A DNA stretch of 36,032 nt, taken from positions 1 through 36,032 of the IMG/VR virus record IMGVR_UViG_3300008267_000750; one strand, given 5' to 3'. This document shows positions 2,352-29,834 of this stretch, piece by piece. The translations under genes and the position numbers were made by a program. Position 1 is the first letter of the stretch. The number at the start of each line of letters is the position of its first letter. Under the pieces are notes generated by a model that made no database searches, was not told the DNA's origin, and saw only the letters and a list, made by a program, of their open reading frames with translations. The DNA comes from a virus.

Positions 2352-3041
2352 ATGAAAAAGGACATAATTATTTTTCACCACAGTTATTTAGTAAATAATT
2401 GGTTAGAAATTATGAGTGAACAACTAGACCTTTTAAAGAAAAGCGAACTTTATGAAAATGCTCAACAAATACATTTTTGTTGTTTTTCTGAAATAAAAGA
2501 AAATATTATTGATTTTGTTAAATTGATCCAAGAATTTGATTTAGATGAAAAATGTACAATTGTAGTTGAACCTTATAATGATAATGAAAGATTAACTCTT
2601 ACATATATGCAAACAATTTGTAAGAATTTATCTGATGAAAAAGTTCTTTATTTTCACACAAAAGGTGTTACATCATACTTAAGATACGGAGAATCTGGAG
2701 ATAGAAATATAAAATCTTGGCGAAATATAATGGAATTTTATTTAATTGAAAATTGGAGGAAATGTTTTGAATTGATGAATAATCATGATGTGGTAGGAGC
2801 ATTTTATGGCCCATGGCATCAATTAACAGGACAGATCATTAATTATTATTCAGGTAACTTTTGGTGGTCCAAGGTATCTCACATAAAAAACACTCCCGAT
2901 ATGAAGAAGAGAGATAATTGGTTAGGTTGTGAATCTTTGATCACCTCAATACCTCATGTTTGGTATAATTTCAGATTTGCCCCCCCTAATTCAAGTATGT
3001 ATGATGTTTATTTCGACCCAAATGAATATAGATTGAATTAA
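2352..3041 (+). CDS. Putative glycosyltransferase-like protein
   Basis: 229 aa. It resembles a family of short glycosyltransferase-like proteins found in marine viruses and bacteria. The features I rely on are a YFHTKGVT motif near residues 99-106, an SWRNIMEFYLIENW helix (about 118-131), a VVGAFYGPW strand, and a YYSGNFWWSKVSHIKNTP motif (about 163-180), where the family usually reads HFSGNFWWAK. There is no signal peptide or membrane segment, so it is probably cytoplasmic. Possible substrates are the phage DNA, a fibre protein or the host surface; the sequence does not decide. The gene follows a terminator and converges with the RNA ligase gene, overlapping it by 4 nt at the stop codons. 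No classical DxD was identified with confidence, so the catalytic assignment is tentative. Confidence 0.5.
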   Translation: MKKDIIIFHHSYLVNNWLEIMSEQLDLLKKSELYENAQQIHFCCFSEIKENIIDFVKLIQEFDLDEKCTIVVEPYNDNERLTLTYMQTICKNLSDEKVLYFHTKGVTSYLRYGESGDRNIKSWRNIMEFYLIENWRKCFELMNNHDVVGAFYGPWHQLTGQIINYYSGNFWWSKVSHIKNTPDMKKRDNWLGCESLITSIPHVWYNFRFAPPNSSMYDVYFDPNEYRLN

Positions 3042-4078
3042 ATTTCTATATTTTTTATAAATGGTTTTTCGTATTTAGGTTCAATTATTTTCCATATAAT
3101 ATTATCATAGCTTTTTTTATCTAACATTTTAAATAATATGGCTGGATATTTTTGTTTTTTTGCATACGCTGCAAATTCAGCTCTGGTGTCTCCCATTTTC
3201 CAATGGAAAAATCTATGGAATGATTTGTTAGATTCTTCTTCTACTAATCTATAATTTCTTTCTAAATTAATTCTGGTTTCCTTTACCCAATCATAAAATT
3301 CGTCTGGAACCCTCTCTAATATCTCAGCAAAGTCATTACCATCAACTAAATGTTGCCATATAGTCCTAGATGAAACATTAGTTAGAATCCTATGTAATCG
3401 AACATAATCGTCAAACTTTACTTTTAATCTAAAACCGTTTTGGAATTTAACAACAAAACCCTCTTTGTTATTCTCTTCCAATTTTTTTAGCTGTGAAATA
3501 TCTTGAATACCATCGTACCTTTTTACAATAGGAAAACCTATTGGTTCTAATTCACAATCCAATCCTGTAGCCTTATCTATTACAGCTAACAAAACCAAAT
3601 CATCAACATTACCATAATTTACAACTATTCTATTTTCCGGATAAATTATCTCGAACAAATATGTTTTTGATTTATCTAAATTAGGAATTACATACTTATA
3701 TCTGTTATGTAAAATGTTTGTTGCATAAATAGCTTGATCAGATTCAAAAGATCCTCTAGTGGCTATGTATGGCATGTCTCCAATCCAATATAAAATACCT
3801 AGTGAACCATCCATTTTTTCATATACTTCAAAAGATGTTTTAGGTATATCATCGTGTGTATGTTCTTCGAGGTTGAAAAACTTTCTAAATGGCCTTGCTA
3901 CTACATTGTAATTTGAATCAAGAATTAAACCTCGACACTGTAAAGTAATTTCGTTCCAAACCCTCTCATATTGAGCTTTTGGACCATAGTTATAAATAAA
4001 ATAATCAGCCTTTTTGTGCTTCTGCACAATGACTAATTTTTCATCTATCATTTTATTTAATTCGTTGATATCTAACAT
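3038..4078 (-). CDS. rnlA: T4 Rnl1-type RNA ligase
   Basis: 346 aa (T4 Rnl1 is 374). It is an ATP-dependent RNA ligase of the nucleotidyltransferase superfamily, which joins 5'-phosphate and 3'-OH RNA ends. All hallmark motifs are present: the lysine that becomes adenylylated in KMDGSLG (K88), motif III at YLFEIIYPENRIVV (E143), motif IV EGFVVKF (206-212) and motif V RLKVKF (217-222). The upstream CRGLILD...VARPFRKFFN block (48-69) is typical of the Rnl1 family. In T4 this enzyme repairs tRNA cut by the host anticodon nuclease PrrC. Here the phage has its own tRNAs and CCA-adding enzyme, so tRNA repair is a reasonable role. I see no polynucleotide kinase/phosphatase partner in this window. 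It is on the opposite strand to its neighbours and overlaps the 2352 gene by 4 nt. Confidence 0.92.
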   Translation of the reverse strand: MLDINELNKMIDEKLVIVQKHKKADYFIYNYGPKAQYERVWNEITLQCRGLILDSNYNVVARPFRKFFNLEEHTHDDIPKTSFEVYEKMDGSLGILYWIGDMPYIATRGSFESDQAIYATNILHNRYKYVIPNLDKSKTYLFEIIYPENRIVVNYGNVDDLVLLAVIDKATGLDCELEPIGFPIVKRYDGIQDISQLKKLEENNKEGFVVKFQNGFRLKVKFDDYVRLHRILTNVSSRTIWQHLVDGNDFAEILERVPDEFYDWVKETRINLERNYRLVEEESNKSFHRFFHWKMGDTRAEFAAYAKKQKYPAILFKMLDKKSYDNIIWKIIEPKYEKPFIKNIEI

Positions 4079-7535: not shown

Positions 7536-7570
7536 TAAAAAACCCTAGAGAATCTCTAGGGGTTTTTTTG
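7536..7570. terminator. Bidirectional terminator
   Basis: An 8-bp stem (CCCTAGAG 7543-7550 with CTCTAGGG 7554-7561), loop AAT, a T-run on the plus side and an A-run (T-run on the minus strand) on the other side. It lies between the convergent lipoprotein gene and tRNA cluster and probably serves both. Confidence 0.85.
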
Positions 7571-7644
7571 TAGTCCCGAGGCGATTCGAACGCCTGACCG
7601 TCTGCTTAGAAGGCAGATGCTCTATCCAGCTGAGCTACAGGACC
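7571..7644 (-). tRNA. tRNA-Arg (UCU)
   Basis: 74 nt cloverleaf read on the minus strand. The acceptor GGTCCTG pairs with CGGGACT with two G-U wobbles, and the anticodon stem TCTGC/GCAGA encloses loop CTTCTAA (anticodon TCT). The T-arm is GGCG/CGCC with loop TTCGAAT. CCA is not encoded. It reads AGA, a common codon in this AT-rich genome. Confidence 0.95.
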
Positions 7645-7650
7645 AATTAG

Positions 7651-7722
7651 TAGCGGGAAGAGGATTCGAACCTCTGACTTCCAGATTATGAGTCTGGTGA
7701 CCTACCTCTGGTCCATCCCGCA
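7651..7722 (-). tRNA. tRNA-Met (CAU), with some initiator-like features
   Basis: 72 nt cloverleaf on the minus strand, with anticodon stem CCAGA/TCTGG and loop CTCATAA (anticodon CAT). Positions 1 and 72 are T and T, so the first acceptor pair is mismatched, and the D-stem has A11:U24. Both are initiator-tRNA features. However the anticodon stem lacks the three G:C pairs of classical initiators. CCA is not encoded. An Ile2 (lysidine) identity cannot be excluded from sequence. Confidence 0.9.
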
Positions 7723-7794
7723 GTATTTTTTTCTTATTACAAAAATAGTAATAAAAAATTAAAAACAAATTTTATAATAAAATTATAAGATTTG

Positions 7795-7868
7795 CTCTCC
7801 TGACTGGGCTCGAACCAGTGACCCATTGATTAACAGTCAATTGCTCTGACCTACTGAGCTACAGGAGA
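7795..7868 (-). tRNA. tRNA-Asn (GUU)
   Basis: 74 nt cloverleaf on the minus strand. The acceptor TCTCCTG/CAGGAGA is perfect, the anticodon stem ATTGA/TCAAT encloses loop CTGTTAA (anticodon GTT), the T-loop is TTCGAGC and the discriminator is G. CCA is not encoded. Confidence 0.95.
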
Positions 7869-8121
7869 TTTTTTTAATTTATGTAGCCGGGGCGGGAATC
7901 GAACCCGCAAGACCTTTAGGGGTCAATGGATTTTCTTACTACTATAGTTTTCACTACCCTTTCGGTTTGTAGTCTGGACTATACCTTCACCATATTTATC
8001 AACTTAGGTGTTCCGTGTCTAGTCTCTACACACGCCCAGTTATAATTATTATAACTTGCTTGGCTCGGTATTCCCATTTTACAGGGTTCACCGAATTTAC
8101 GGAATTCTACTCTCGAAATTT

Positions 8122-8601
8122 CTAACGAGGCACTCTATTTTTATTTTTTCCACGATAAGTAAAAGTAAAAGCGTGACAGTTTGGACATAAAATTTTTAAA
8201 TTTTCTATTCTATTATCATCATTTATACCATTAATATGCTCTAATTCAAGTGGAATTTCTTTATTCATCCAATGAGTATTTAAACAAGATTCGCATTTTT
8301 TTTCTTTAATACCTTCTTTAAATAATCTCAATTTCAATTTATAAGTTTGAGTATAAGGAGAATTTTCTATTAGAATTTCTTCTATTTTAAATTCTTTACC
8401 AAACTTTCTAAATTTCTCTCCTTGATTCCAAGCAGATCCTGTAAAATGAGAAATATCAATATTAAATTTCTTGAATTTTAGTTTCAACGTTTTATAATTA
8501 CCACCAACTGGTAATATTTTTAGTTGCCTACAAACTTCAGCTATTGATAAACTATTTTTTACAATTACTTCTAATTCTTCTTTCGTATATTTATATTTCA
8601 T
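8122..8601 (-). CDS. HNH homing endonuclease encoded in the tRNA-Leu intron
   Basis: 159 aa, same strand as the tRNA and fully inside the intron. The N-terminal part contains a helix-turn-helix-like segment (SIAEVCRQLKILPVGG, 19-34). A C103-x-x-C106 zinc pair precedes the HNH core: LELEHINGINDDNRIENLKI with E121-H122, N130/N134 and C139-P-N-C142-H. This is the HNH type that recognises LELEHI(N/D)G...LCPNCHA. It probably cuts the intronless tRNA-Leu gene to spread the intron. The start ATG is 4 nt after a CTATTTAT box (8606-8613), so it may have its own promoter, as the T4 td intron endonuclease does. The coding region ends 24 nt before core element P. Confidence 0.88.
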   Translation of the reverse strand: MKYKYTKEELEVIVKNSLSIAEVCRQLKILPVGGNYKTLKLKFKKFNIDISHFTGSAWNQGEKFRKFGKEFKIEEILIENSPYTQTYKLKLRLFKEGIKEKKCESCLNTHWMNKEIPLELEHINGINDDNRIENLKILCPNCHAFTFTYRGKNKNRVPR

Positions 8602-8605
8602 GAAT

Positions 8606-8613
8606 ATAAATAG
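8606..8613 (-). promoter_or_regulatory. Putative phage promoter box (CTATTTAT) inside the intron
   Basis: On the minus strand CTATTTAT lies 4 nt before the HNH ATG. It is inside the intron, where an independent promoter for the endonuclease would be needed if transcript splicing or folding hides the reading frame. Confidence 0.35.
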
Positions 8614-8729
8614 TAAGAAAAAAGTTAAACGTGGTTATAGTCAAAGTCCATCGTGTTTGCCTATTTCACCACCCGGCCATTAATTCAAAGAACAACGATA
8701 CAAATATATATAAAATATATATAAAAACA

Positions 8730-8758
8730 AAAGAGCTGGAATTATCCAGCTCTTTTTC
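8730..8758 (-). terminator. Rho-independent terminator for the outer-membrane protein gene
   Basis: An 11-bp perfect stem AAAGAGCTGGA (8730-8740) with TCCAGCTCTTT (8745-8755), loop ATTA. On the minus strand a T-run (TTTTGTTTTT) follows. It lies about 30 nt downstream of the 8786 stop and just upstream of the tRNA-Leu 5' end; it could also work in the plus direction. Confidence 0.85.
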
Positions 8759-27770: not shown

Positions 27771-28112
27771 GTGTCAAATAAAAATAAAATTATTTATTTA
27801 TTTTTCATTCCTGAATTGAATATAAGTAAGATTGGAATAAGCAGAAATGCTACTAAAAGATTAAGTCAATTACAAACTGGTTGTCCTTATCAAATACAAT
27901 TAATTAAAACATATAGTTCAGAATTTTCTACTAAAATTGAAAGAGTATTACATAGGTCATTCAGAACAAAAAAAGTTGATTCGTTTGAATATGCCTTGTT
28001 AGGAGAATGGTTTAATTTAGAAATAGATTCAATATTAAAATTCGAGGAAATTTGCTCTGAAATAGAGAAAAATATTATCTATTTAAAGAAAGAAAACAAT
28101 CCTTTTCTATGA
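27771..28112 (+). CDS. T5orf172/GIY-YIG-like (Mug113-type) protein
   Basis: 113 aa from a GTG start. The pattern IIYLFFIPELNISKIGISRN, KRLSQLQTGCPYQIQLIKTY, an E-R-V-L-H helix and GEWFNLE near 84-90 is that of the T5orf172 / Mug113 domain, a relative of the GIY-YIG nuclease fold that is common in phages. The canonical GIY-YIG start is replaced by IYLF...KIGIS, as is usual for this family. It lies alone between the sheath terminator and the Vsr-like gene, overlapping it by 6 nt at their ends. It is probably a homing-type or DNA-processing nuclease; substrate unknown. The ATG at 27770 is out of frame with it, so GTG is used. Confidence 0.7.
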   Translation: MSNKNKIIYLFFIPELNISKIGISRNATKRLSQLQTGCPYQIQLIKTYSSEFSTKIERVLHRSFRTKKVDSFEYALLGEWFNLEIDSILKFEEICSEIEKNIIYLKKENNPFL

Positions 28113-29834
28113 TATGTGAAGTACAAATTTCATACTTCCGCAATCCCAAATTCTATCCATTCTATTTTTTTTTGCTATTTGCCATTCAGTCAATTCAGAA
28201 TTTTCATTGAATAATTTTATTAATTTTTGTTTATTATATTTGAAACGGTGATATCTTATAAAATAGTTACTTTTTTCGAAGTAAAAATAATTAGGTTTAG
28301 TTGTATTGATATATTCGAAATTGCATTTATGGTAAACAGTATTTTCCGGATTTAAACCACTCCAACGACAATCTGCATAAGTGAAAATCTCTTTAGTTTC
28401 AGGATTGTTTTTTAAAAAATGATTTAAAAGTTTTTCAAAACCCCCAATAATATTATAGTCAATTTTAGAGCAAAAACGAGATAATTCTACTGAATTTTCT
28501 TTGTCCTGATTATTTTTTAATTTGTTTCCAAGGGCTAGTCTAGGTTTACAAAAAGTCATTACTGAAACAATTTCATTTTTTAAAAATAAACCATAACTTT
28601 TGAAGTTCACATCATTTCCCTGTATATGATTTTCTTCTAAAAATAATTTCTTTTCCATAAATGTGATTTCTTTTATTTCACAATTTCTTGCATAAATTTT
28701 ATTAGGCGTTAAATTCAAATAATTCTTAATTCTACTTTTCACTATATCCTTTTTAAACATCCATTCATCTTCAAAAATATGTATCAATTTAATATTTTCA
28801 TTATTACATAATTGAGATTTTTTTAAATGATAATTGGGAAGTTTGTTTCCACCCATTTCAGAGTGAAAATAATTCCCATTCAATTCAAATGCTATTTTGT
28901 GATCTTGTAAGTAGAAATCTAACTCCAGAGGAGCAATAATTTTTTTTGTATTCTCAACATATTCTAGATTTAGTGAATCTAAAAAATCTTTGAATTCACC
29001 TTGTTGTTTTGAAATGCTAGTTAATGGATAACATCTTCTACAAATTGGTATAGAATCAAAAGACCATTCGAATATATTGTCACATAATTTACAAGTAAGT
29101 TGATATTTCAAATAGTGTAATTTGCCTTCATCTGTCTTTATTCTTAATTTATTGTATTGATTAATATCGAACTTCAAATCATTTTTAGCTAAAATTTCCT
29201 TTATTTTATTTGTTTTGTTTAGCTTTTGGATGCCCAAATAAAGATCAGAGCTAAAATAATAATCTGAATTAAATTTATTTTGGTTTGTTTTTTTTAAATT
29301 ATCTTTGCATTTATCAGTTTGTAAAGTATAATCAACTCCGTATTTATCTCTATTTGTTTGTTTGAGTTTGTCTAAGGACTCTTTAGTTTTGAGGTGATGA
29401 TCAACTTTATATTTATCTAAAGTTGTTTTTTTTGCTTTCTCTCTATTATTAAAATTTGGATCATTATATTTTAATAATTTTGTTTGATCAGATTTTTCTT
29501 TATAATCCTTTATTTTAGATGGGTGTTCTACATCATACTTCTCTTTCAAAGAGCTCTTTATTTTTTCATAATTATTATATTTCTCATCTCCGTATTTTTC
29601 CTTCTTGATTTGTTTTAAATTATCATAATAATTATCAGTTTCAAAAAAACTTTTTTTACCATATTTTTTTTCTATGGTATCAAAAATTTTTTTCATCCTT
29701 TCGTCTTTATGGTTTTTTCTATATAATTCAGTGCATTTTTCACTGCAATTTTTTTTGTTTTTCTTGTTACCAGCATCGAATTCCTTTTTGCATGTTTCAC
29801 AAACTTTAACTCGTTGAATTTTAGGTCTTCCCAT
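28107..29834 (-). CDS. Vsr-like (EDxHD) homing endonuclease
   Basis: 575 aa. An N-terminal zinc finger (C12, C15, C30, C34) is followed by a chain of short repeats with the pattern K-x-K-x-x-x-x-K-Y-G-V (for example KLKQTNRDKYGVDYTLQTDK), a zinc ribbon near 250-272 (CKLCDNIFEW ... CRRC), then the nuclease core: PLELDFYLQDHKIAFELNGN with YFHSE downstream, and HIFEDEWMFKKDIVKSRI. This combination matches the Vsr-like PD-(D/E)xK homing endonucleases (I-Bth0305I type), which cut DNA and spread by homing. It is on the minus strand between sheath and tube genes. The repeats probably make the DNA-recognition arm. Confidence 0.75.
   Translation of the reverse strand: MGRPKIQRVKVCETCKKEFDAGNKKNKKNCSEKCTELYRKNHKDERMKKIFDTIEKKYGKKSFFETDNYYDNLKQIKKEKYGDEKYNNYEKIKSSLKEKYDVEHPSKIKDYKEKSDQTKLLKYNDPNFNNREKAKKTTLDKYKVDHHLKTKESLDKLKQTNRDKYGVDYTLQTDKCKDNLKKTNQNKFNSDYYFSSDLYLGIQKLNKTNKIKEILAKNDLKFDINQYNKLRIKTDEGKLHYLKYQLTCKLCDNIFEWSFDSIPICRRCYPLTSISKQQGEFKDFLDSLNLEYVENTKKIIAPLELDFYLQDHKIAFELNGNYFHSEMGGNKLPNYHLKKSQLCNNENIKLIHIFEDEWMFKKDIVKSRIKNYLNLTPNKIYARNCEIKEITFMEKKLFLEENHIQGNDVNFKSYGLFLKNEIVSVMTFCKPRLALGNKLKNNQDKENSVELSRFCSKIDYNIIGGFEKLLNHFLKNNPETKEIFTYADCRWSGLNPENTVYHKCNFEYINTTKPNYFYFEKSNYFIRYHRFKYNKQKLIKLFNENSELTEWQIAKKNRMDRIWDCGSMKFVLHIS

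Follow-up and report, generated by a model that had tools for sequence, protein, structure and literature searches.

The window (the whole stretch of DNA analysed here, 36,032 nt, positions 1 to 36,032 of the IMG/VR virus record IMGVR_UViG_3300008267_000750) carries on its minus strand a tRNA-Leu(UAA) gene that is interrupted in the anticodon loop by a group I intron with an HNH gene. The split gene lies in a cluster with three other tRNA genes. Its features are as follows.

7570..7868, minus strand: tRNA-Asn(GUU), tRNA-Met(CAU) and tRNA-Arg(UCU), co-directional, in a cluster with the split tRNA-Leu (ARAGORN)
7883..7934, minus strand: tRNA-Leu(UAA) 3′ exon, from A35 onward, with variable arm, T arm and acceptor 3′ strand (ARAGORN)
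7935..8643, minus strand: group I intron, 709 nt, at U34|A35, terminal omega-G at 7935 (ARAGORN, Rfam, covariance model)
7945..7956, minus strand: P9-domain hairpin UAGU-GAAA-ACUA (4/4 pairs changed on both sides)
7976..7985, minus strand: S element with P7 3′ strand UAGUC at 7977-7981 (P7 covariation)
8011..8016, minus strand: P3 3′ strand ACGGAA (covariation)
8017..8031, minus strand: R element with P7 5′ strand GACUA at 8020-8024 (core alignment, covariation)
8059..8069, minus strand: Q element / P4 3′ strand, ACCGAGCCAAG (core alignment, covariation)
8099..8104, minus strand: P3 5′ strand UUCCGU, partner ACGGAA (covariation)
8112..8129, minus strand: P2 hairpin with GAAA loop, two U-U mismatches in the window copy
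8122..8601, minus strand: HNH ORF, 159 aa, with an N-terminal helical region and a CxxC / H / N / CPNCH domain, in the P1 loop between 5′ splice site and guide (phrog_10822)
8130..8135, minus strand: internal guide sequence GAGUGC, pairing with exon ACUU (P1, U.G at the splice site), in the last ORF codons
8644..8678, minus strand: tRNA-Leu(UAA) 5′ exon, with acceptor 5′ strand, D arm, anticodon stem 5′ strand and C32 U33 U34 (ARAGORN)
8701..8731, minus strand: promoter-like TTTG-N19-TAnnTTTG just upstream of the tRNA-Leu gene (motif scan, weak)

The split gene and the ribozyme core

With introns allowed, ARAGORN called tRNA-Leu(taa) at c[7883,8678], with a 709-nt intron after position 35, which is the U34|A35 site; without introns the only tRNAs that it found in the window were Asn, Met and Arg. 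After excision the exons form an 87-nt class II tRNA-Leu in which every stem is paired. The joined anticodon loop reads CUU|AAAA, which places the cut between U34 and A35 and the intron at 7935-8643, preceded by an exon U and ending in G (7935). A pattern made of the S motif and the 3′ exon matched once in the window and in 0/100 shuffles. The split-gene structure is near certain. An earlier note on this DNA, made from the letters alone, had described two minus-strand tRNA halves, 709 nt apart, that join as a class II tRNA-Leu, and ARAGORN with introns agrees. Of the limits that it gave for the gene, 7884-8678, the 5′ end stood, as did the intron within them, but the tRNA 3′ end is 7883, one base off.

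The elements expected of a group I intron are all present: P3, P4, P6 and P7, P/Q/R/S in order, a pseudoknotted P3/P7, the exon U paired with a guide G in P1, and the terminal intron G. The window copy deviates at two P2 pairs (the mismatches listed above) and has a non-standard third P6 pair, and its P10 appears weaker than that of ORF-less relatives. In those relatives the guide lies ~10-20 nt into the intron, against 508 nt in the window copy. Since the guide falls within the last HNH codons, the HNH gene fills the P1 loop, and the end of the gene doubles as P1 and P2. GC content is 24% in the ORF, 30% in the window and 39% in the core. The low value for the ORF could fit an added gene; the codon bias of an AT-rich phage is an alternative cause.

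Rfam Intron_gpI, one of the checks that the earlier note had proposed, gave a mixed outcome. Searched on a 1.2-kb stretch it matched 7953-8173 with 50.3 bits against a cut-off of 50 (E 1.6e-11), and a repeat run was again above the cut-off, but the intron went unreported when the whole window was scanned with the default gathering setting. The same model at E 1e-5 did not report the intron of phage locus L030, although its core is 83% identical to that of the window. Because it misses close relatives such as this one, we regard Rfam as a poor test for these introns. We therefore give more weight to a covariance model (A4, R1) that was trained on 20 bacterial tRNA-Leu introns alone, 3 of them cyanobacterial. 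Model R1 matches the window at 7935-8135, from the guide to the terminal G, with 142.8 bits and E 5.5e-44 (R1 E-values are rough). It found no match at loci with intact tRNA-Leu genes, nor in two ribozyme-less loci described below (L005, L021).

For covariation we extracted 53 distinct introns at U34|A35 from phage and bacterial DNA, and aligned 37 cores from the guide to the 3′ end. The P2-P9 structure is paired in 96.7% of cells, as compared with 75.2% in shuffles and 26-41% when partners were slid; the structure was derived from the window sequence, and the sliding control is biased in its favour for that reason, while the double changes stem from other rows. Compensatory (both-side) changes occur in 31/42 core pairs. 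All six P3 pairs vary on both sides and are 100% paired; P7 is likewise 100% paired, and its fifth pair is seen as AU, UA, CG and GC. The guide GAG is invariant (37/37 cores). By covariation the ribozyme core of the window intron is intact, and the exons and core together suggest that the pre-tRNA very likely splices. The earlier note's central claim, a group I intron at U34|A35 of a phage tRNA-Leu(UAA) with an HNH gene, is thus upheld by ARAGORN, phrog_10822, covariation and the covariance model.

IA2 is the typical subgroup of T4 and Twort phage introns. It was our first guess from the S element and was dropped, as the intron aligns with bacterial trnL introns. In the literature its relatives, the tRNA-Leu(UAA) introns, are classed as IC3 (PMC3984707).

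The HNH gene and its recurrence

The window HNH ORF matches phrog_10822 with E 3.2e-49, while the match to Pfam HNH_3 is weak. Residues C103, C106, H122, N134, C139, C142 and H143 are unchanged in 24 homologs. The ORF is intact, with the catalytic His, Asn and His and the zinc-binding Cys pairs present. In the AlphaFold model (mean pLDDT 86) a flexible link joins a helical N-terminal part to an HNH fold; a PDB structure search with the HNH model gave weak McrA-type/HNH matches, none below 0.001. The protein is likely to be a homing endonuclease acting on tRNA-Leu(UAA), judging from the location of such genes in introns at one site and from the free-standing homologs beside tRNA-Leu.

HNH relatives were collected at 43 viral loci, many of them mutual copies, and the IMG/VR contigs among them may include non-viral ones. 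In at least 13 distinct phage loci the HNH ORF lies inside a tRNA-Leu(UAA) intron with both exons flanking (the window phage, L024, L026, L029, L030, L031, L032, L041, L043, L045, L046, L049 and L051). Its place in the intron varies. The ORF occupies the P1 loop in the window, L024, L026, L029 and L030, and, beyond the 13, in L390 and L274; the P6 region in L031, L041, L043, L045, L046, L049, L051, L003 and L069; and an antisense position in the intron of L032. In the HNH protein tree, where support is low, the P1, P6 and antisense positions are intermixed. ORFs in P1, in P6 or antisense make the pattern of an endonuclease gene that has invaded the intron repeatedly. Free-standing HNH homologs lie 4-148 nt from an intact tRNA-Leu(UAA) gene in L027, L035, L055 and L056, and another lies 69 nt from tRNA-Leu(CAA) in cyanophage S-CRM01, as expected if tRNA-Leu is the target. 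Four more loci with HNH beside a seemingly intact tRNA-Leu (L021-L023, L039) were not counted: in L021 the HNH gene follows a tRNA-Leu 5′ half, and the neighbouring 'Leu' tRNAs are unusually short.

Several loci depart from the common arrangement. In L069 (4541-5403) a tRNA-Leu(CAA) is split at the same site by an HNH-bearing intron, so that the site choice covers a second Leu isoacceptor. Dulem virus 42 (L005, 2395-3030) has a homologous HNH gene in the tRNA-Leu anticodon loop, with both halves kept and no group I core, and L021-L023 (2400-3040) have a tRNA-Leu 5′ half followed by HNH and no ribozyme (model R1 on L021). These four may be either ribozyme-deleted relics or direct insertions of the endonuclease gene at its target. 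The HNH homologs of L026, L027, L029 and L037 are broken by early stops under table 11, from decay or stop-codon reassignment. In L025 (IMGVR_UViG_3300008114_000242), an otherwise identical copy of the phage, the HNH ORF has a 103-nt gap. Endonuclease decay was set aside there: ~109 nt are missing elsewhere in L025 and ~136 nt in L016, and the gap is therefore likely an assembly error.

Introns without an ORF also occupy U34|A35. Phage LR756501 (735 kb) and Agrobacterium phage Atu_ph07 have one, as do many IMG/VR contigs, not all of them necessarily viral, and in all the site is filled in at least dozens of viral contigs. The earlier note had called such introns seldom reported in phages. They are not rare, being found in many viral contigs and in genomes of 490 kb (Atu_ph07), 595 kb and 735 kb, but they are unannotated there. 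The published description of Atu_ph07 lists 33 tRNAs and says nothing of introns; the split tRNA-Leu(UAA) of this phage falls in a stretch without a tRNA feature. In large phage genomes, a tRNA that looks essential thus escapes standard annotation.

Phage group I introns were also seen outside tRNA-Leu. Pelagiphage HTVC120P (L001) and uvDeep1-GF2-KM23-C739 (L012) have unannotated group I introns of the tRNA-Leu intron family in the capsid region (R1 136 and 102 bits), which explain why the capsid gene is annotated as split in both; L012 has a second such intron at 3175-3337. Two more phage tRNA introns have a recognisable group I core, one in Arg-CCU of Microcoleus phage My-WqHQDG (L010, 2313-2598) and one in a tRNA of Lak-B1 that ARAGORN calls Ser-CGA (L013, 2336-2653), with R1 scores of 129 and 41 bits.

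Kinship with bacterial introns

A tree was made from 102 introns and 193 columns, a short alignment that limits the reading of deep branches and of transfer direction. The window intron, with L030 as its sister (97/90), falls in a 25-row clade (94/99) whose members are 22 phage tRNA-Leu introns, 2 pelagiphage capsid-gene introns and 1 phage tRNA-Asn intron. Far from this clade, the three tRNA-Leu introns of cyanobacteria group by themselves (99/97), and in this 102-intron tree the window intron is neither nested among cyanobacterial trnL introns nor sister to them. That the insertion point equals that of the cyanobacterial and plastid tRNA-Leu(UAA) intron, as the earlier note had it, is correct (U34|A35, ARAGORN). 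The shared site does reflect a common family, as model R1 indicates, but not the close cyanobacterial link that it might be taken to signal, since the clade of the window intron is one of phages. On alignment and model match, the window ribozyme is, we conclude, homologous to bacterial and cyanobacterial trnL introns.

A genome scan and ARAGORN placed introns at the same tRNA-Leu site, among the matches listed, in Alphaproteobacteria, Bacteroidota, Cyanobacteria, Planctomycetota, Clostridia and others. One of these, in an uncultured Bacteroidales MAG (L274), is a 725-nt intron with an HNH ORF 51% identical to that of the window. Its neighbours, read from translations, are mreB, mreC, mreD, pbp2, rodA and a protease gene; this mreB-rodA neighbourhood indicates that the intron is chromosomal and not in a phage. 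Another Bacteroidales MAG (L254) has a nearly identical core and no ORF, and such a pair, with and without, is expected of an endonuclease gene that was gained or lost. In the tree the phage intron L003 groups with an Eremiobacterota intron (100/93), and L390 lies close to the two Bacteroidales introns. Five changes between phage and bacterial labels are needed on the Leu rows, which makes exchange likely. The earlier note's suggestion that a phage-borne intron could be a route into bacterial genomes, or the reverse, is strengthened by the mixed groups and the HNH-bearing Bacteroidales chromosomal copy, with transfer possible in either direction. Movement from phage to host is plausible.

IC3-like cores were also seen in tRNA-Asn(GUU) of two Candidatus Pacearchaeota MAG contigs (L192, L206), which are possibly mis-binned. 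Two archaeal IC3 matches were set aside as uncertain by Nawrocki 2018 (PMC6125680).

Proposed mobility of the intron and its alternatives

Our interpretation, which we hold with good confidence, is that a self-splicing intron and an HNH gene homing on tRNA-Leu(UAA) spread together among phages and sometimes to host chromosomes. In the folded pre-tRNA, exon ACUU would be paired with guide GAGU (P1); guanosine would attack after U34, and ligation of the exons would yield a normal tRNA-Leu(UAA). The HNH protein, expressed from the P1 loop, would recognise intronless tRNA-Leu(UAA) genes and cut them at the anticodon region, and repair from the intron copy would spread the element among co-infecting phages and sometimes to host chromosomes. 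We infer cutting and homing from the anatomy of the intron and its recurrence in many phages and one bacterial chromosome. Searches for an intronless allele of the window phage, including one with the neighbouring gene, returned none; every related contig carries the intron and is the same phage, so homing was not caught in the act. Two pattern matches considered as intronless alleles (L408, L409) were rejected, as their tRNAs differ outside the anticodon arm.

The HNH protein may instead be a passenger on an intron that splices, inactive or with its target elsewhere, the intron being inherited vertically and moving only with whole tRNA cassettes. The copies of the window phage are identical across samples and some homologs are broken, both of which agree with this, and recombination of the whole tRNA locus is an established alternative for the tRNA-Leu intron (Rudi 2002, in the part of PMC3984707 that cites it). 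We nevertheless think it unlikely, given that the window ORF is intact with all catalytic residues, that its homologs are found again at this tRNA site where the backgrounds are unrelated, and in more than one loop of the intron, and that free-standing homologs adjoin tRNA-Leu genes. A dead tRNA, with halves that stay unjoined in a phage that does without tRNA-Leu(UAA), has precedent in the ribozyme-less loci (L005 of Dulem virus 42, and L021-L023 with the 5′ half only). In the window, though, drift would have broken what is seen, namely perfect pairing of the exons, an intact core and a 3′ splice site with a terminal G, and we rate this possibility as very improbable. Slighter still is the chance of independent convergence, in which the phage intron would have no kinship with the bacterial and cyanobacterial tRNA-Leu intron and the two would have only an attractive insertion site in common. 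Phage introns described earlier sit in protein genes (PMC3984707), and the distance of the window intron from the cyanobacterial ones in the tree might speak for such convergence. It is largely refuted by the end-to-end match of the bacterial-intron model, and is further opposed by the unambiguous alignment of the guide, GAAA-capped P2, Q, R, S and P9 and by the interleaving of phage and bacterial rows in the tree.

Few old introns are as well known as the tRNA-Leu(UAA) intron, which is common to cyanobacteria and plastids and has long been treated as an immobile, ancient marker. Its horizontal transfer has been argued previously, without a mobility gene. The window intron has in common with the cyanobacterial and plastid trnL IC3 intron the gene, the U34|A35 site, the GAG guide and the core architecture; unlike it, the window intron is hosted by a phage, belongs to a separate clade and bears an HNH gene. 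Plastid trnL introns had an ORF in 0/242 entries, and the sole tRNA intron endonuclease listed by the same source is I-Ssp6803I in tRNA-fMet (PMC1995217; earlier reports elsewhere are possible). That Synechocystis intron resembles the one in the window as a tRNA group I intron encoding a homing endonuclease on the anticodon region (PMC1995217), and differs in its tRNA, in its enzyme (PD-(D/E)XK, not HNH) and in its bacterial host. Same-site introns in bacteria and plastids are known without such a gene, and the armed phage form points to a possible means of spread.

Among phages, a 2014 review placed all known group I introns in protein genes, despite the many phage tRNA genes (PMC3984707). 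The Lak megaphages gave the first reported phage tRNA introns, which were called enigmatic (Devoto 2019, PMC6784885). These are phage tRNA introns as in the window, and R1 matches the Lak-B1 one (41 bits, above), but they lie in other tRNAs, and the Lak-B1 one that was examined has no HNH gene. HNH-armed phage group I introns of the I-HmuI, I-BasI, I-PfoP3I and I-TwoI type are likewise similar, but lie in protein genes, whereas that of the window lies in a tRNA gene and has a tRNA-Leu-family ribozyme; the I-PfoP3I intron is group IA2 (PMC3428280).

More tentatively, and with somewhat more doubt than belief, we propose that large phages are a reservoir of still-mobile tRNA-Leu(UAA) introns, which an HNH gene targeting tRNA-Leu(UAA) genes may join repeatedly, in the P1 loop, in P6 or even antisense, and carry between phages and onto bacterial chromosomes, where the HNH gene would afterwards be lost. 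If this is true, phages would be the vector that has been lacking to account for the patchy distribution of the tRNA-Leu(UAA) intron. The HNH-armed phage intron and the armed and unarmed Bacteroidales copies make the question of movement directly testable.

Seven further IMG/VR contigs come from the window phage, among them a 222-kb one. A tail sheath and an Rnl1-like RNA ligase indicate a myovirus; the best relatives of two structural proteins are in a Microcystis phage (26%, full sheath), Flavobacterium phages and a further phage. The TTTG-N19-TAnnTTTG motif has 5 matches in the window as compared with 1.4 expected (5 were reached in 1/100 shuffles), and it has the spacing of a Bacteroidota-type promoter. 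A Bacteroidota host is a guess. A second, far larger homing-endonuclease-like gene (28107-29834, minus strand; phrog_3339, 7e-107; Pfam DUF7487) lies in the structural region on the strand opposite to its neighbours. Rnl1 is a tRNA-repair enzyme in T4, and the T4 Rnl1-like RNA ligase of the window (3038-4078, minus strand; phrog_562, 1.8e-66) belongs to a phage that has a tRNA cluster.
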